Assembly (NCBI GenBank): GCA_947566705.1
Contig: CANOLA010000018.1
Span: 1 to 45,658, forward strand
Direction of reading: 5' to 3'
DNA: 45,658 nt
From: an uncultured Lachnospiraceae bacterium
GTDB taxonomy: Bacteria > Bacillota > Clostridia > Lachnospirales > Lachnospiraceae
Shown here: in pieces, positions 17,376 to 22,599 of the stretch
Layout of the letters: every line of letters starts with the position of its first letter
How positions within the stretch are numbered: the first letter of the stretch is position 1
Program-made: the position numbers and the translations under genes
The notes under the pieces: model-generated
The model's input: the letters and a program-made list of their open reading frames with translations, nothing else
Told to the model about the DNA's origin: nothing
The model's database searches: none

Positions 17376-18794
17376 TTAAACCGGATATGCAGCGTTTTTA
17401 ACATCCCCTGCTTTTACATCCACGCCTGTCTGCTGTGCTTCACGGTATTTGAAGAAATCAGTAGCAACCTGTGGAAACAGTGCATAGGAAAGAACATCCT
17501 CATCCTGTTTTTTGTACTGCTTCATCTCTGCTTCAATCTTATCAAGCTCCGGCTCCAGTAAATCTGCAGGACGGCAGGTAATGGCATTCTTTTTGTCCTC
17601 ACCCAGTACCTTGTCAACAACTTCCGGGTTAAATGGTTTTACGGTCTGTCCGTACTTGCCAAGAAGAATATCCTTCGTCTCCTTGGTTGCAACTTTGTAA
17701 CGCTCACCCATTAAGACATTAAATACAGCCTGTGTACCAACAATCTGGGAAGACGGGGTAACAAGAGGCGGCTCACCCAGATCCTTTCTTACACGCGGAA
17801 CTTCTGCAAGAACCTCTTCAAACTTATCCTCCTTGCCCTGCTCTTTAAGCTGTGAAATCAGGTTGGAAAGCATTCCACCCGGCACCTGGTAACGGAGTGT
17901 ATTGATATTAACCCCCAGCACCTTTGGATTCATCAGACCGCTTGCAAGCGCTTCCTCCCTCTGCGGACGGAAGTAATCAGCAATTTCAGCCAGAAGGTTC
18001 TGGTCTAATCCGGTATCATACTCAGTTCCTTTAAATGCCTCAACCATAACCTCTGTAGCAGGCTGGCTGGTTCCGAGCGCAAATGGTGACATTGCCGTAT
18101 CAATAATATCACATCCTGCCTCTACTGCTTTCATATAGGTCATGGAAGCCACACCGGAAGTATAATGGGTATGAAGTTCGATTGGAAGACTGGTTGCACT
18201 CTTTAATGCCTGTACCAGCTTCGTGGCTTCTGTCGGTACTAAAAGTCCTGCCATATCCTTAATGCATAAGGAATTGGCTCCCATATCCTCAATCTTCTTT
18301 GCCATTTCCATCCAGTAATCCAGGGTATAGGCATCTCCCAATGTATAAGAAAGCGCCACCTGTGCGTGTCCGTTTTCTTTATTGCAGGCTGTAACAGCAG
18401 TCTGTAAATTGCGGACATCATTTAAACAGTCGAAAATACGGATAATATCAATACCGTTTGCAACTGACTTCTGTACAAAATACTCCACAACATCATCTGC
18501 ATACGGACGGTATCCTAAGATGTTCTGTCCACGAAAGAGCATCTGAAGTTTTGTATTTTTAAAACCGTTTTTCAGCTTGCGAAGCCTCTCCCACGGGTCT
18601 TCTTTTAAGAAACGCAGGCAGGCATCAAAAGTTGCACCGCCCCAGCACTCCACTGCGTGGTATCCAACCTGGTCCATTTTGTCAACGATTGGAAGCATCT
18701 GCTCTGTTGTCATACGTGTTGCAATCAGGGACTGGTGTGCATCACGAAGAACAGTCTCTGTTATTTTTAATGGTTTCTTTTCCATTTCAGACAT
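17376..18794 (-). CDS. oadA: Oxaloacetate decarboxylase alpha / pyruvate carboxylase subunit B carboxyltransferase
   Basis: A 472-residue TIM-barrel biotin carboxyltransferase (OadA/PycB/5S). ETVLRDAHQSL is at 13-23 with metal and active-site Asp18, GGATFDACLRF at 52-62, the metal-bridging carboxylated lysine is probably Lys179 in CIKDMAG, and the metal histidines are 208 and 210 in ELHTHYTSG. The PYC_OADA tail (about 300-460) is present but there is no C-terminal biotin domain, so it must use the separate carrier protein. Of two nearby ATGs I chose 18794, which has GGAG at 8-base spacing; the ATG at 18800 is too close. It is the last gene of the operon, 15 bp after oadB. Confidence 0.92.
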   Translation of the reverse strand: MSEMEKKPLKITETVLRDAHQSLIATRMTTEQMLPIVDKMDQVGYHAVECWGGATFDACLRFLKEDPWERLRKLKNGFKNTKLQMLFRGQNILGYRPYADDVVEYFVQKSVANGIDIIRIFDCLNDVRNLQTAVTACNKENGHAQVALSYTLGDAYTLDYWMEMAKKIEDMGANSLCIKDMAGLLVPTEATKLVQALKSATSLPIELHTHYTSGVASMTYMKAVEAGCDIIDTAMSPFALGTSQPATEVMVEAFKGTEYDTGLDQNLLAEIADYFRPQREEALASGLMNPKVLGVNINTLRYQVPGGMLSNLISQLKEQGKEDKFEEVLAEVPRVRKDLGEPPLVTPSSQIVGTQAVFNVLMGERYKVATKETKDILLGKYGQTVKPFNPEVVDKVLGEDKKNAITCRPADLLEPELDKIEAEMKQYKKQDEDVLSYALFPQVATDFFKYREAQQTGVDVKAGDVKNAAYPV

Positions 18795-18809
18795 AATCAT
18801 TTCTCCTTT

Positions 18810-19958
18810 TTAGATTCCAAATATTGCCATAAAGCATCCTGCCGCAACAGCCGTACCAATTACTCCGGCAACGTTTGGTCCCATTGCATGCATGAGCAGG
18901 AAGTTTGTCGGATCTTCCTCTGCGCCGACCTTCTGGGATACACGCGCAGCCATAGGTACTGCCGATACGCCGGCTGAACCAATGAGAGGATTAATCTTGC
19001 CTTTGGTAATATAACACAGCAGTTTGCCGAACAGTACTCCGGCAGCCGTACCAAACATAAATGCCACAAGTCCAAGCACTACGATCTTTAATGTGCTGGC
19101 ATTTAAGAATGCCTCTGCACTTGTCGTTGCACCAACAGAAGTACCCAGCAGAATAACTACGATATACATCATGGCATTGCTTGCTGTCTCCTGTAACTGG
19201 CGAACCACGCCGGATTCACGGAACAGGTTTCCAAGCATCAGCATTCCGACAAGCGGGGCCGTTGTAGGAAGCAGTGTACATACCACAACAGTAACCACAA
19301 TTGGAAACAGAATTTTTTCCAGCTTGCTGACTGGACGAAGGTTCTGCATTTTGATTGCACGCTCCTTCTTTGTGGTAAACAGCTTCATAATCGGGGGCTG
19401 GATAATCGGTACAAGCGCCATATATGAATATGCCGCCACTGCAATCGGTCCCATAAGCCCCGTCTGCCCCAGCTTGGAAGCAAGGAAAATGGAAGTCGGT
19501 CCGTCTGCCCCTCCGATAATGGATACTGCAGCTGCCGCCTTGTCATTAAAACCAAGTACAATGGCAAGGAAGTATGCTGCAAAAATACCAAACTGCGCTG
19601 CAGCTCCCATCAGAAAGCTGACAGGGTTTGCAATCAGCGGACCAAAGTCTGTCATCGCACCAACTCCAAGGAAAATCAGGGAAGGTAAAATTGACCACTC
19701 ATCCAGTGTATAAAAATAATAAAGTAAACCGCCTATGCCATTGCTCGTCTGCTCCGGACTTGCAATAATATCCGGATATATGTTTACAAGCAGCATTCCG
19801 AATGCGATCGGAACTAACAGTAATGGCTCAAAGCCCTTTTTAATCGCAAGATAAAGGAAAAAAAGCGCTACCAGTATCATCACGTAATTTCCCCATGTCA
19901 GATTGAAAAAGGCTGTCTGATGTAGGAGGTTTGTTAATGTTTCGCCTACATAACTCAC
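18810..19958 (-). CDS. oadB: Na+-translocating decarboxylase beta subunit (OadB/MmdB/GcdB)
   Basis: A 382-residue integral membrane subunit that decarboxylates carboxybiotin and pumps Na+ outward. Hallmarks are [15 protein letters not shown] (about residues 105-119, with the essential Asp of the family), a discontinuous helix region [15 protein letters not shown], and the C-terminal [21 protein letters not shown] and [25 protein letters not shown] block. About nine to eleven TM segments. The start is a GTG at 19958 with AAGGAGG 8 bases upstream. It is shared by all biotin Na+ decarboxylases, so it does not itself define the substrate. Confidence 0.95.
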
Positions 19959-21150: not shown

Positions 21151-21162
21151 TAAACTTCACCT

Positions 21163-22599
21163 CTATCTGGTCCCATGCTTCTTTTCCGGTGCCTGTACAT
21201 ATTTTGTATAGAGCATTTCAAATGCCGCAACAAGATATTTCCTGGAATCTGCCGGGGCAATGATACGGTCCACATACCCTCTTGCAGCCGCTGCTGCCGC
21301 AGAATCCTGCAGGCTTTCATATTCAGCCGCTTTGCTCTTTATCTCTTCTGCGTTTGCATCCGGATACATGATTTTTGCTGCCATTGTAGCATCCATTGCA
21401 CCGATTTTTGCATCCTGCCATGCATAAACAAAATCCGCACCAATGGATTTGGAATTCATAAATACATAGGCACTGCCGTATGCTTCACCTGTAATCAGAT
21501 TTACCTTTGCACAGGAGGCATTTGCAAATGCAGATGTCATTCTGGCAAGTGCACGGGCAAGGTTCTTCTCAGAACACATGGTATTGTTAAATCCGGTTAC
21601 ATTGGTAATGGACAGTACCGGAATGGAAAATGCATCGCAGAACTGGATAAAATCAGCCGCCTTGCTGCATCCTTTGGCAGTCAGGGTGCTGGCAAATTTC
21701 TCTGTGCAGCTTCCCTGCGCGTCATAAACCTCTGTACAGTTTGCAACTGCACCGACTGTCATGCCGTTTAACTGGAACAGACCGGTAACCATATTTCTGG
21801 CAAAGCCTGCCTTCGTTTCAAAAAAGACATGTCCGTCCGCAATCTGTGACAGGAGATATCTCGGATCCCCCTTCATGTTTTCCATGCTCACGCAGGCACG
21901 ATTTAAATCATCCCCGCAGTTACCTGTATAAACATCTCCCTCACTGTTGTTCGGAAGCATGCATACGAGCTGGCGGATCTGTGCCATAATTTCATCCTCA
22001 GAACCGGTAAAATCAATGCAGCCGTTATTTTCACCCTGGAACTTTGCACTGGTTGTATCGCAGACTTCCGCACGGTTGCCGGAAACCGCATCCGCCGGAT
22101 TAATAAACATACGGCCTTTGCTTTCCTCAATAAATGCAAAATCACACAGTGCCGGAACAACAGAAAGCCCGCCTCCGCAGTTTCCAAATACACCGCAGAT
22201 CTGCGGAACCAGTCCGGATGCAGCAACCTCTTTTGCATAAATAAGTCCGAATCCATCCAGCGCATCCACAGATTCCTGAAGACGCACTCCGCCGCAGTCA
22301 ATAAAACCAATAACCGGCGCTCCCATTTTCATTGCCATATCGTAAACAGAAGCAATTTTTTTTGCATGCATCTCTCCAATGGTTCCGTTTAACACAGAAG
22401 CATCCTGGCTGTAAATAAATACCAGATTACCGTCAATCAGTCCGTGACCGGTGACTACACCATCCGAAGGAGCCTTTGCAGCATCCATGTTAAAATCCGT
22501 GCTGCGTGCCGTTACGAGAGAACCGATTTCCATAAAACTGTTCTCATCGACCAATCTGGCAATACGCTGCATCGCCAGATTTTCATTGTTACTACTCAT
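21163..22599 (-). CDS. Divergent acyl-CoA-type biotin carboxyltransferase (MmdA/12S-like)
   Basis: A 478-residue crotonase-fold carboxyltransferase with two domains. The N-terminal half has DCGGVRLQESVDALDGFG (101-118) and the first oxyanion turn NCGGG (140-144). The C-terminal half has EAYGSAYVFMNSKSIGAD (372-389) for the second. It is shorter than typical MmdA/PccB (about 510) because the 30-40 residue N-terminal helix region is missing. The PGFLPGxxQE-type biotin/acyl-pocket motif is changed to TGFNNTMCSE (335-344). It is unusually cysteine-rich (about 15). It heads the operon in the position of mmdA. The acyl substrate (methylmalonyl-, glutaconyl- or malonyl-CoA, or something else) cannot be assigned. 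Confidence 0.88.
   Translation of the reverse strand: MSSNNENLAMQRIARLVDENSFMEIGSLVTARSTDFNMDAAKAPSDGVVTGHGLIDGNLVFIYSQDASVLNGTIGEMHAKKIASVYDMAMKMGAPVIGFIDCGGVRLQESVDALDGFGLIYAKEVAASGLVPQICGVFGNCGGGLSVVPALCDFAFIEESKGRMFINPADAVSGNRAEVCDTTSAKFQGENNGCIDFTGSEDEIMAQIRQLVCMLPNNSEGDVYTGNCGDDLNRACVSMENMKGDPRYLLSQIADGHVFFETKAGFARNMVTGLFQLNGMTVGAVANCTEVYDAQGSCTEKFASTLTAKGCSKAADFIQFCDAFSIPVLSITNVTGFNNTMCSEKNLARALARMTSAFANASCAKVNLITGEAYGSAYVFMNSKSIGADFVYAWQDAKIGAMDATMAAKIMYPDANAEEIKSKAAEYESLQDSAAAAAARGYVDRIIAPADSRKYLVAAFEMLYTKYVQAPEKKHGTR

Follow-up and report, generated by a model that had tools for sequence, protein, structure and literature searches.

In the common scheme, acetyl-CoA is carboxylated by a biotin carboxylase (BC), a biotin carrier and a carboxyltransferase (CT), and the available sections of the source for this scheme give Thermotogales, Spirochaetes and Actinobacteria as exceptions in the distribution of BC (PMC3199775). 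Propionibacterium transcarboxylase (12S, 1.3S and 5S) uses two CT fold types and a separate small carrier. Related subunits make up the Na+-translocating decarboxylases of oxaloacetate (OadABG) and methylmalonyl-CoA (MmdADCB), the latter encoded in what we take to be the order mmdA-mmdD-mmdC-mmdB. Here we describe an operon that would combine a transcarboxylase with a Na+ decarboxylase pump in an uncultured Lachnospiraceae bacterium, a gut organism belonging to the Roseburia/Agathobacter group. It occupies positions 17376–22599 of the window, the whole analyzed stretch of 45,658 nucleotides (contig CANOLA010000018.1). All five genes lie on the minus strand, with coordinates, order and short spacing as given in the initial annotation; the intergenic gaps measure 12, 31, 18 and 9 nucleotides. 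In order of transcription, the genes are:

21163–22599, minus strand: first gene, 12S-like acyl-CoA carboxyltransferase, 478 amino acids (aa); PF01039, 337 bits
20365–21150, minus strand: fusion of an N-terminal, lipoprotein-type extracytoplasmic domain to OadG, 261 aa; PF04277
19977–20333, minus strand: biotin carboxyl carrier, 118 aa; PF00364, 64 bits; biotinyl Lys84 in the motif EIMKM
18810–19958, minus strand: OadB, predicted Na+-translocating carboxybiotin decarboxylase, 382 aa, GTG start; PF03977, 512 bits
17376–18800, minus strand: 5S/OadA-type oxaloacetate carboxyltransferase, 474 aa; HMGL-like and PYC_OADA domains

We propose, at a likelihood somewhat short of even, that many Lachnospiraceae, Roseburia and Agathobacter among them, form malonyl-CoA with no BC and with no ATP spent at that step. 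A single oxaloacetate-loaded carrier would serve the pump, the 12S and, in trans, the AccDA carboxyltransferase of fatty-acid synthesis, and accB and accC would have been lost repeatedly because the operon was already present.

The subunit set bears out the likeness to transcarboxylase drawn in the initial annotation, since a 12S-type CT, a 5S-type CT and a separate small carrier are all present, and a model of the operon 12S aligns with 1on3 chains at a template modeling (TM) score of 0.84–0.87. Unlike transcarboxylase, the operon adds OadB and OadG, and its 12S belongs to a separate subfamily. The resemblance to OadABG lies in OadB and 5S/OadA, both above NCBIfam cut-offs, and in the OadG domain recognized by Pfam. 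Specifically, OadB reaches 476 bits against TIGR01109 (cut-off 190.6), and the 5S protein reaches 755 bits against the OadA model NF008985 (cut-off 718). The latter falls below TIGR01108, a model that includes the biotin domain (677 versus 756.5 bits), and below the transcarboxylase 5S model NF008984 (587 versus 827 bits); its phmmer matches include 5ks8, 2nx9 and 1rqb (transcarboxylase 5S, 459 bits). Pfam confirms the earlier statement that this protein has no biotin domain of its own. The operon differs from OadABG in that its carrier is a separate protein, its OadG bears a lipoprotein domain and an acyl-CoA CT leads the gene order.

The first four genes share their subunit types with MmdADCB. 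Their order, like the mmd order assumed above with a 5S gene appended, and the fold match of the 12S to 1on3 speak for the initial annotation's framing of the operon as a methylmalonyl-CoA/propionyl-CoA transcarboxylase or a methylmalonyl-CoA decarboxylase in a propionate pathway. We consider this framing highly improbable. Unlike MmdADCB, the operon has the additional 5S, and its 12S scores 369 bits against the MmdA model TIGR01117 (cut-off 998.8), which does not sustain the MmdA identity; the MmdC and MmdD cut-offs are likewise missed (71 of 200 and 25 of 150 bits). No methylmalonyl-CoA mutase turned up in any of 150 Lachnospiraceae genomes, that of the window included, in a search whose control was positive in 8 of 14. 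This makes a propionate pathway through the operon unlikely in the family and another acyl-CoA the likely 12S substrate, and methylmalonyl-CoA was rejected for that role. Separately, stand-alone MmdA-like carboxyltransferases in frames of 541–562 aa occur in five genomes (loci L164–L167 and L184, from genomes G080, G060, G045, G031 and G064, where L and G numbers are our handles). No carrier or BC match lies within the stretches fetched around them; G031 is BC-positive elsewhere.

Malonyl-CoA made by a transcarboxylase has already been proposed for thermophilic Clostridia. According to the sections available from each report, the Caldicellulosiruptor bescii regulator FapR, whose effector is malonyl-CoA, controls a unit of methylmalonyl-CoA carboxyltransferase, hypothetical protein, carrier and oxaloacetate decarboxylase (PMC7071700), and a Clostridium thermocellum model assigns malonyl-CoA to a putative transcarboxylase, the standard enzyme lacking (PMC5414155). 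Cthe_0699 was also used in gap filling (PMC2852388); Cthe_0699–0701 are listed as oxaloacetate decarboxylase, and the Cthe_0699 complex is given as ~220 kDa, with BC not detected (PMC3561251, PMC3039559). As described there, a 12S-type protein, a small protein, a carrier and an oxaloacetate carboxyltransferase stand together as in our operon, which differs in having OadB. An operon of Geobacter bemidjiensis also groups 12S, 5S and carrier and was proposed to avoid one ATP; unlike the Lachnospiraceae operon, it has no pump gene named in the sections available (PMC2996986). Within the searched and partly accessible literature, we met no report of AccDA without BC in Lachnospiraceae and none of malonyl-CoA supplied by an operon of the pump-bearing form with two carboxyltransferases. 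The accessible parts of PMC11861179 and PMC8100219 hold nothing on the malonyl-CoA source or on AccDA without BC, and a word search of the Roseburia genome report found acetyl-CoA carboxylase not mentioned and the biotin transporter bioY described as general (PMC7478625).

The genome to which the window belongs is 84% complete and has no match to the BC domain PF02785. Its PF02786 matches were assigned from sequence to CarB (a 1082-aa frame), two Ddl-like proteins and PurD, and an AccC hidden among these ATP-grasp proteins was rejected. The genome yields a single protein above the PF00364 cut-off, namely the operon carrier. The fatty-acid cluster on contig 31 (acpP, fabK, fabD, fabG, fabF, fabZ, accDA and fabH) encodes an AccD-AccA fusion that exceeds the accA and accD equivalog cut-offs (370 and 368 bits), as in heteromeric acetyl-CoA carboxylase (AccABCD). 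Unlike in AccABCD, neither accB nor accC is present in this cluster, and AccB and AccC were not found in the 84%-complete genome. With no BC and no second carrier found, the operon would stand in for both. The same absence recurs in the genus, where PF02785 was not found in 50 of 60 sampled genomes. Among the 30 of good quality (completeness of 90% or higher, contamination of 5% or lower) the figure is 21, and two of the 50 are one-contig assemblies with 99–100% completeness. The ten genus genomes with a PF02785 match comprise seven with a BC-sized open reading frame (ORF); the other matches fall in ORFs of ~1200 aa, among them L271, which looks like a pyruvate carboxylase.

At the family level we surveyed 150 Lachnospiraceae genomes, one per genus, and PF02785 was not found in 54. 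FabD, the enzyme that consumes malonyl-CoA, is present in 126 as judged with one protein query, and 33 of these have no detected BC. A 5S match occurs in 31 of the 33; the two without (G020 and G064) are 61–67% complete. An AccDA or AccD plus AccA match is kept by 23 of the 33 (weakly in G131, 6e-17) and is missing from 10, a retention that sets the family apart from C. bescii and C. thermocellum as they appear in the available text. The operon is the only candidate carboxybiotin donor found in BC-less cells. FabD was not found in 24 of the 150 genomes (for example G002, G007, G039, G111, G121 and G135), and 21 of these also have no detected BC, which suggests a loss of fatty-acid synthesis. 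One AccDA match (G104, contig C1, 286755–287999) lies inside an 11,149-aa open frame that may be a masked or N-filled stretch.

Gene clusters add detail to this pattern. We compared 19 BC-less fab/acc loci from 18 genomes (L085, L148–L163, L186 and L187) with 17 BC-positive loci (L168–L183 and L185). None of the 19 contains accC or an AccB-type ORF, whereas an ORF of 143–213 aa with an EAMKL/M motif is present in 15 of the 17. In BC-positive relatives, accB and accC sit inside the fab cluster (fabF-accB-fabZ-accC-accDA or acpP-accB-accC-accD-accA); in L180 and L181, the two BC-positive loci without the EAMKL/M ORF, accC lies outside a fab cluster. Among the BC-less loci, accDA lies apart from clear fab genes in L156 and L187 and beside more distant fab-like genes in L149, and L161 and L163 run into contig ends. 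A quick tree of AccD plus AccA was built from 55 rows: of 62 candidate genomes, 54 contributed (G129 with two rows), and the eight that had no usable pair were left out. BC state changes at least five times on this tree, and the clade with the window's genome holds 13 BC-less rows. The operon carriers follow no such division: 39 carrier rows from 42 loci gave no clear difference tracking AccB loss, with EIMKM, EVMKM or ESMKM in place of EAMKM in 5 of 17 BC-less rows versus 1 of 22 BC-positive rows.

A fab cluster without any acc gene was found in G134 (99% complete), G108 (99%), G131 (98%), G080 (99%) and G097 (92%, near a contig end). A separate MmdA/PccB-like carboxyltransferase is present in G080, G108 and G131. 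In G134, the operon is complete and its 12S is the only acyl-CoA carboxyltransferase found with the 12S and AccDA queries, so this genome would be a natural experiment favoring malonyl-CoA formation by the operon.

From the genes, their order and conservation, the catalytic residues, and the BC and AccB that were not found, we infer every reaction, which way the flow runs and that AccDA draws on the same carrier. The 5S-type subunit would move the carboxyl group of oxaloacetate onto biotin-Lys84, freeing pyruvate. Carboxybiotin would then have two routes: decarboxylation by OadB/OadG with export of Na+, or transfer by an acyl-CoA carboxyltransferase that makes malonyl-CoA from acetyl-CoA. In this organism, the acceptor could be the operon 12S or the AccD-AccA fusion encoded with the fatty-acid genes, or the two could share the role. 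With oxaloacetate as carboxyl donor, acetyl-CoA would become malonyl-CoA at no cost in ATP, and the carboxybiotin pool would be vented or balanced by the pump. Oxaloacetate decarboxylation releases about 34 kJ/mol (about −34 kJ/mol in the available text of PMC8100219), in principle enough either to pump Na+ or to carboxylate acetyl-CoA. We rate the chances as even that the five genes specify a single biotin enzyme whose one carrier serves two carboxyltransferase heads and a Na+ pump, and that this enzyme replaces AccB and AccC for malonyl-CoA.

Several observations weigh against BC-independent malonyl-CoA formation. The absences in the window's genome come from an 84%-complete assembly, the one genome in which carriers were counted, and 7 of the 60 genus genomes carry accC in the fab cluster, as a BC-sized ORF of 452–467 aa. 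Loss of BC is not statistically dependent on 5S (Fisher 0.21 in 150 genomes, 0.19 in those at least 95% complete), because 5S is nearly universal. Of the 21 BC-less genomes in which FabD went undetected, 17 keep the 12S, which therefore cannot serve solely to provide malonyl-CoA for fatty acids; and a 12S that makes malonyl-CoA would leave the retention of AccDA without an obvious reason. At the operon, no FabT-like box was found in 71 loci (mean 10.9 of 17 versus 10.7 in shuffles), which gives no sign of joint control with the fatty-acid genes. Such boxes do precede fab clusters (13 of 15 control clusters scored, at 12–15, without a shuffled baseline), and joint control through them was rejected. 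Finally, the majority of the gut butyrate producers examined retained some growth when biotin was withheld, according to the available part of a study that also describes biotin auxotrophy as widespread in Lachnospiraceae (PMC7360928).

The retention of 12S where FabD is undetected also favors two other explanations. In the first, the operon would be a plain Na+-translocating oxaloacetate decarboxylase with an accessory or structural 12S, and malonyl-CoA would come from an unrecognized enzyme or fatty acids would be scavenged. The greater conservation of 5S (71–93% identity, with three genomes at 56–57%) than of 12S (47–70%) points the same way. We regard this explanation as unlikely, given the presence of FabD in 33 BC-less genomes, the lack of any other acyl-CoA carboxyltransferase found in G134 and the conservation of the 12S active-site frame. 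We aligned 37 family members with 21 sequences of canonical or intermediate type. The residues that we presume to map to the two oxyanion holes are C141, G143, G144 and G375, present in 37 of 37 members, and A377, present in 34 of 37; mean identity among the 37 is 68%. A degenerate, inactive 12S was rejected on the basis of this conserved catalytic frame. The AlphaFold model of the 12S (predicted local distance difference test score, pLDDT, 83.6) best matches PccB 8pn8/6ybp and transcarboxylase 12S 1on3 in the Protein Data Bank (PDB; TM 0.84–0.89).

The second explanation assigns the 12S another short acyl-CoA (for example of glutaconyl-, butyryl- or crotonyl-type) and makes the operon a two-substrate Na+-pumping decarboxylase of energy metabolism. 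It draws on a pocket unlike that of MmdA/PccB, in which the canonical LGG at 182–184 is replaced by mostly T, S/A and S, H196 by D, and Y147 by V or L; G376 is S in 34 of 37 members. The closest sequences and folds, however, are propionyl-CoA carboxylase (PCC), transcarboxylase and acetyl-CoA carboxylase-type subunits, and the match to glutaconyl-CoA decarboxylase is weak (about 1e-13 to 1e-14). Moreover, V379 aligns with the specificity residue D407 of a propionyl-CoA carboxylase (D407/D422 position), where a small hydrophobic residue presumably admits acetyl-CoA; D422V, D422L and D422I entries are among the structure-search results. We judge this explanation to have little likelihood. On the alignment and model, the 12S reads as a distinct subfamily, an intact predicted carboxyltransferase with a changed pocket and not a relic.

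The unit of two carboxyltransferases, single carrier and pump is conserved and is a trait of the family. Operon-type 12S occurs in 131 of the 150 family genomes and 5S with at least 56% identity in 138, as judged from lists that end at weak matches and may let small fragments escape. Both are present in 129, with 5S alone in nine (G006, G023, G030, G039, G053, G063, G097, G109 and G146), 12S alone in two (G029 and G064) and neither in ten; homologues thus do not routinely carry just one of the two carboxyltransferases. Six of the 11 single-carboxyltransferase genomes are less than 90% complete; G053, G039, G097, G109 and G029 are not, and G053, G039, G109 and also G030 look like true exceptions. 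In 116 of the 129 genomes with both, the genes share a strand and lie no more than 8 kb apart, with a median of 3.8 kb between their starts, and in the other 13 they are on different contigs. The shared-carrier idea of the initial annotation is therefore retained as the simplest reading of a conserved unit, stripped of its methylmalonyl framing. Named genomes gave 123 related loci, and in the best 80 a neighborhood survey of the kind suggested earlier found all five genes 70 times, in the order 12S, OadG, carrier, OadB and 5S; in the other ten, the contig breaks off short of the final one or two genes. Closest among the named relatives are Agathobacter sp. (86%), Roseburia faecis (83%), R. porci (78%), R. 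inulinivorans (73%) and R. hominis (68%).

The distribution of OadB bears on a further possibility, that OadB runs in reverse and a Na+ gradient carboxylates biotin, replacing BC for malonyl-CoA (through AccDA and 12S) and for oxaloacetate (through 5S). Of the best 80 named loci, 75 include OadB; in the remaining five, the contig stops before that gene is reached. Full-length pyruvate carboxylase occurs in 4 of 12 genomes without 5S versus 4 of 138 with it (Fisher 0.0014, uncorrected for kinship), as if the operon supplied oxaloacetate, a hint of an anaplerotic role. Against reversal, the operon lacks OadB in three family genomes: the BC-less, FabD-positive G033 (where OadB may still lie elsewhere in the genome) and the BC-positive G065 and G117. 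Ten loci hand-picked from the tables for other families of the class (L095–L104) all hold both carboxyltransferases and a carrier, and five hold OadB, counts that are not rates. Operons without OadB, G033 included, favor loading of biotin from oxaloacetate over Na+-driven loading, and we consider reversal quite improbable.

Among the abundant butyrate producers of the human gut are Roseburia and Agathobacter. Were malonyl-CoA formed from oxaloacetate as proposed, their fatty-acid synthesis would be tied to oxaloacetate and a membrane Na+ pump instead of ATP and bicarbonate, their biotin requirement might rest on one small protein, and inhibitors of BC would not touch them. For common gut bacteria, such a combination of transcarboxylase and pump would affect fatty-acid synthesis in a way that was not expected and can be tested. 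AccDA working from a transcarboxylase carrier would also contradict the common BC-carrier-CT scheme, as set out in the available part of its source (PMC3199775).

Three candidate regulatory sites flank the operon:

22684–22701, minus strand: Rex-like half-palindrome CTGTGAAAAATTTAACAA, just upstream of the operon −35
22649–22677, minus strand: promoter-like site TTGAAA-17-TACAAT; 8 matches in the region versus a shuffle mean of 10.2
about 17336–17366, minus strand: terminator-like hairpin followed by a T run, 3′ of the 5S gene; seen by eye and unlisted by the terminator scan

The single promoter and single terminator of the initial annotation are weakly borne out, in that both sequences are visible, but the promoter does not exceed chance and the hairpin is not in the terminator scan. 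Hexamers resembling the promoter-like site are visible upstream in several of nine relatives. Scored with what we assume to be the Rex consensus, the Rex-like box averages 10.7 of 14 in 71 relatives versus 9.3 in block shuffles; 30 of the 71 reach 12 of 14, the top score observed. It stands at about the same distance upstream in many Roseburia and Agathobacter relatives, which suggests redox control of the operon in the Roseburia group. The absence of a FabT-type box is a further difference from the C. bescii and C. thermocellum units as described in the available text. In the fatty-acid operon of the window's genome (L085, contig C31), two FabT-like boxes lie upstream of acpP at 6650–6725, with scores of 16 and 15 of 17, and a MarR-type gene stands at the end of that operon.

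The OadG protein is a fusion. PF04277 (66.5 bits; cut-off 27) is confined to residues 166–244, and the whole protein falls below the TIGR01195 cut-off (31.5 versus 36.05 bits). A lipobox, LVLGAC, was identified by eye, and its C21 is kept in at least 90% of 51 homologues. In the structural model (pLDDT 86), the N-terminal domain consists of helices and a four-stranded sheet; a structure search returned no PDB match at E 0.001, the best lead being the DUF3887 protein 4hyz (E 0.066, not significant).

The 23 scanned neighboring genes around the operon show no link to its function. Elsewhere in the window, two tRNA-Glu genes, both with the anticodon CTC, lie on opposite strands ~190 bases apart:

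40270–40343, minus strand: tRNA-Glu (CTC)
40533–40604, plus strand: tRNA-Glu (CTC)

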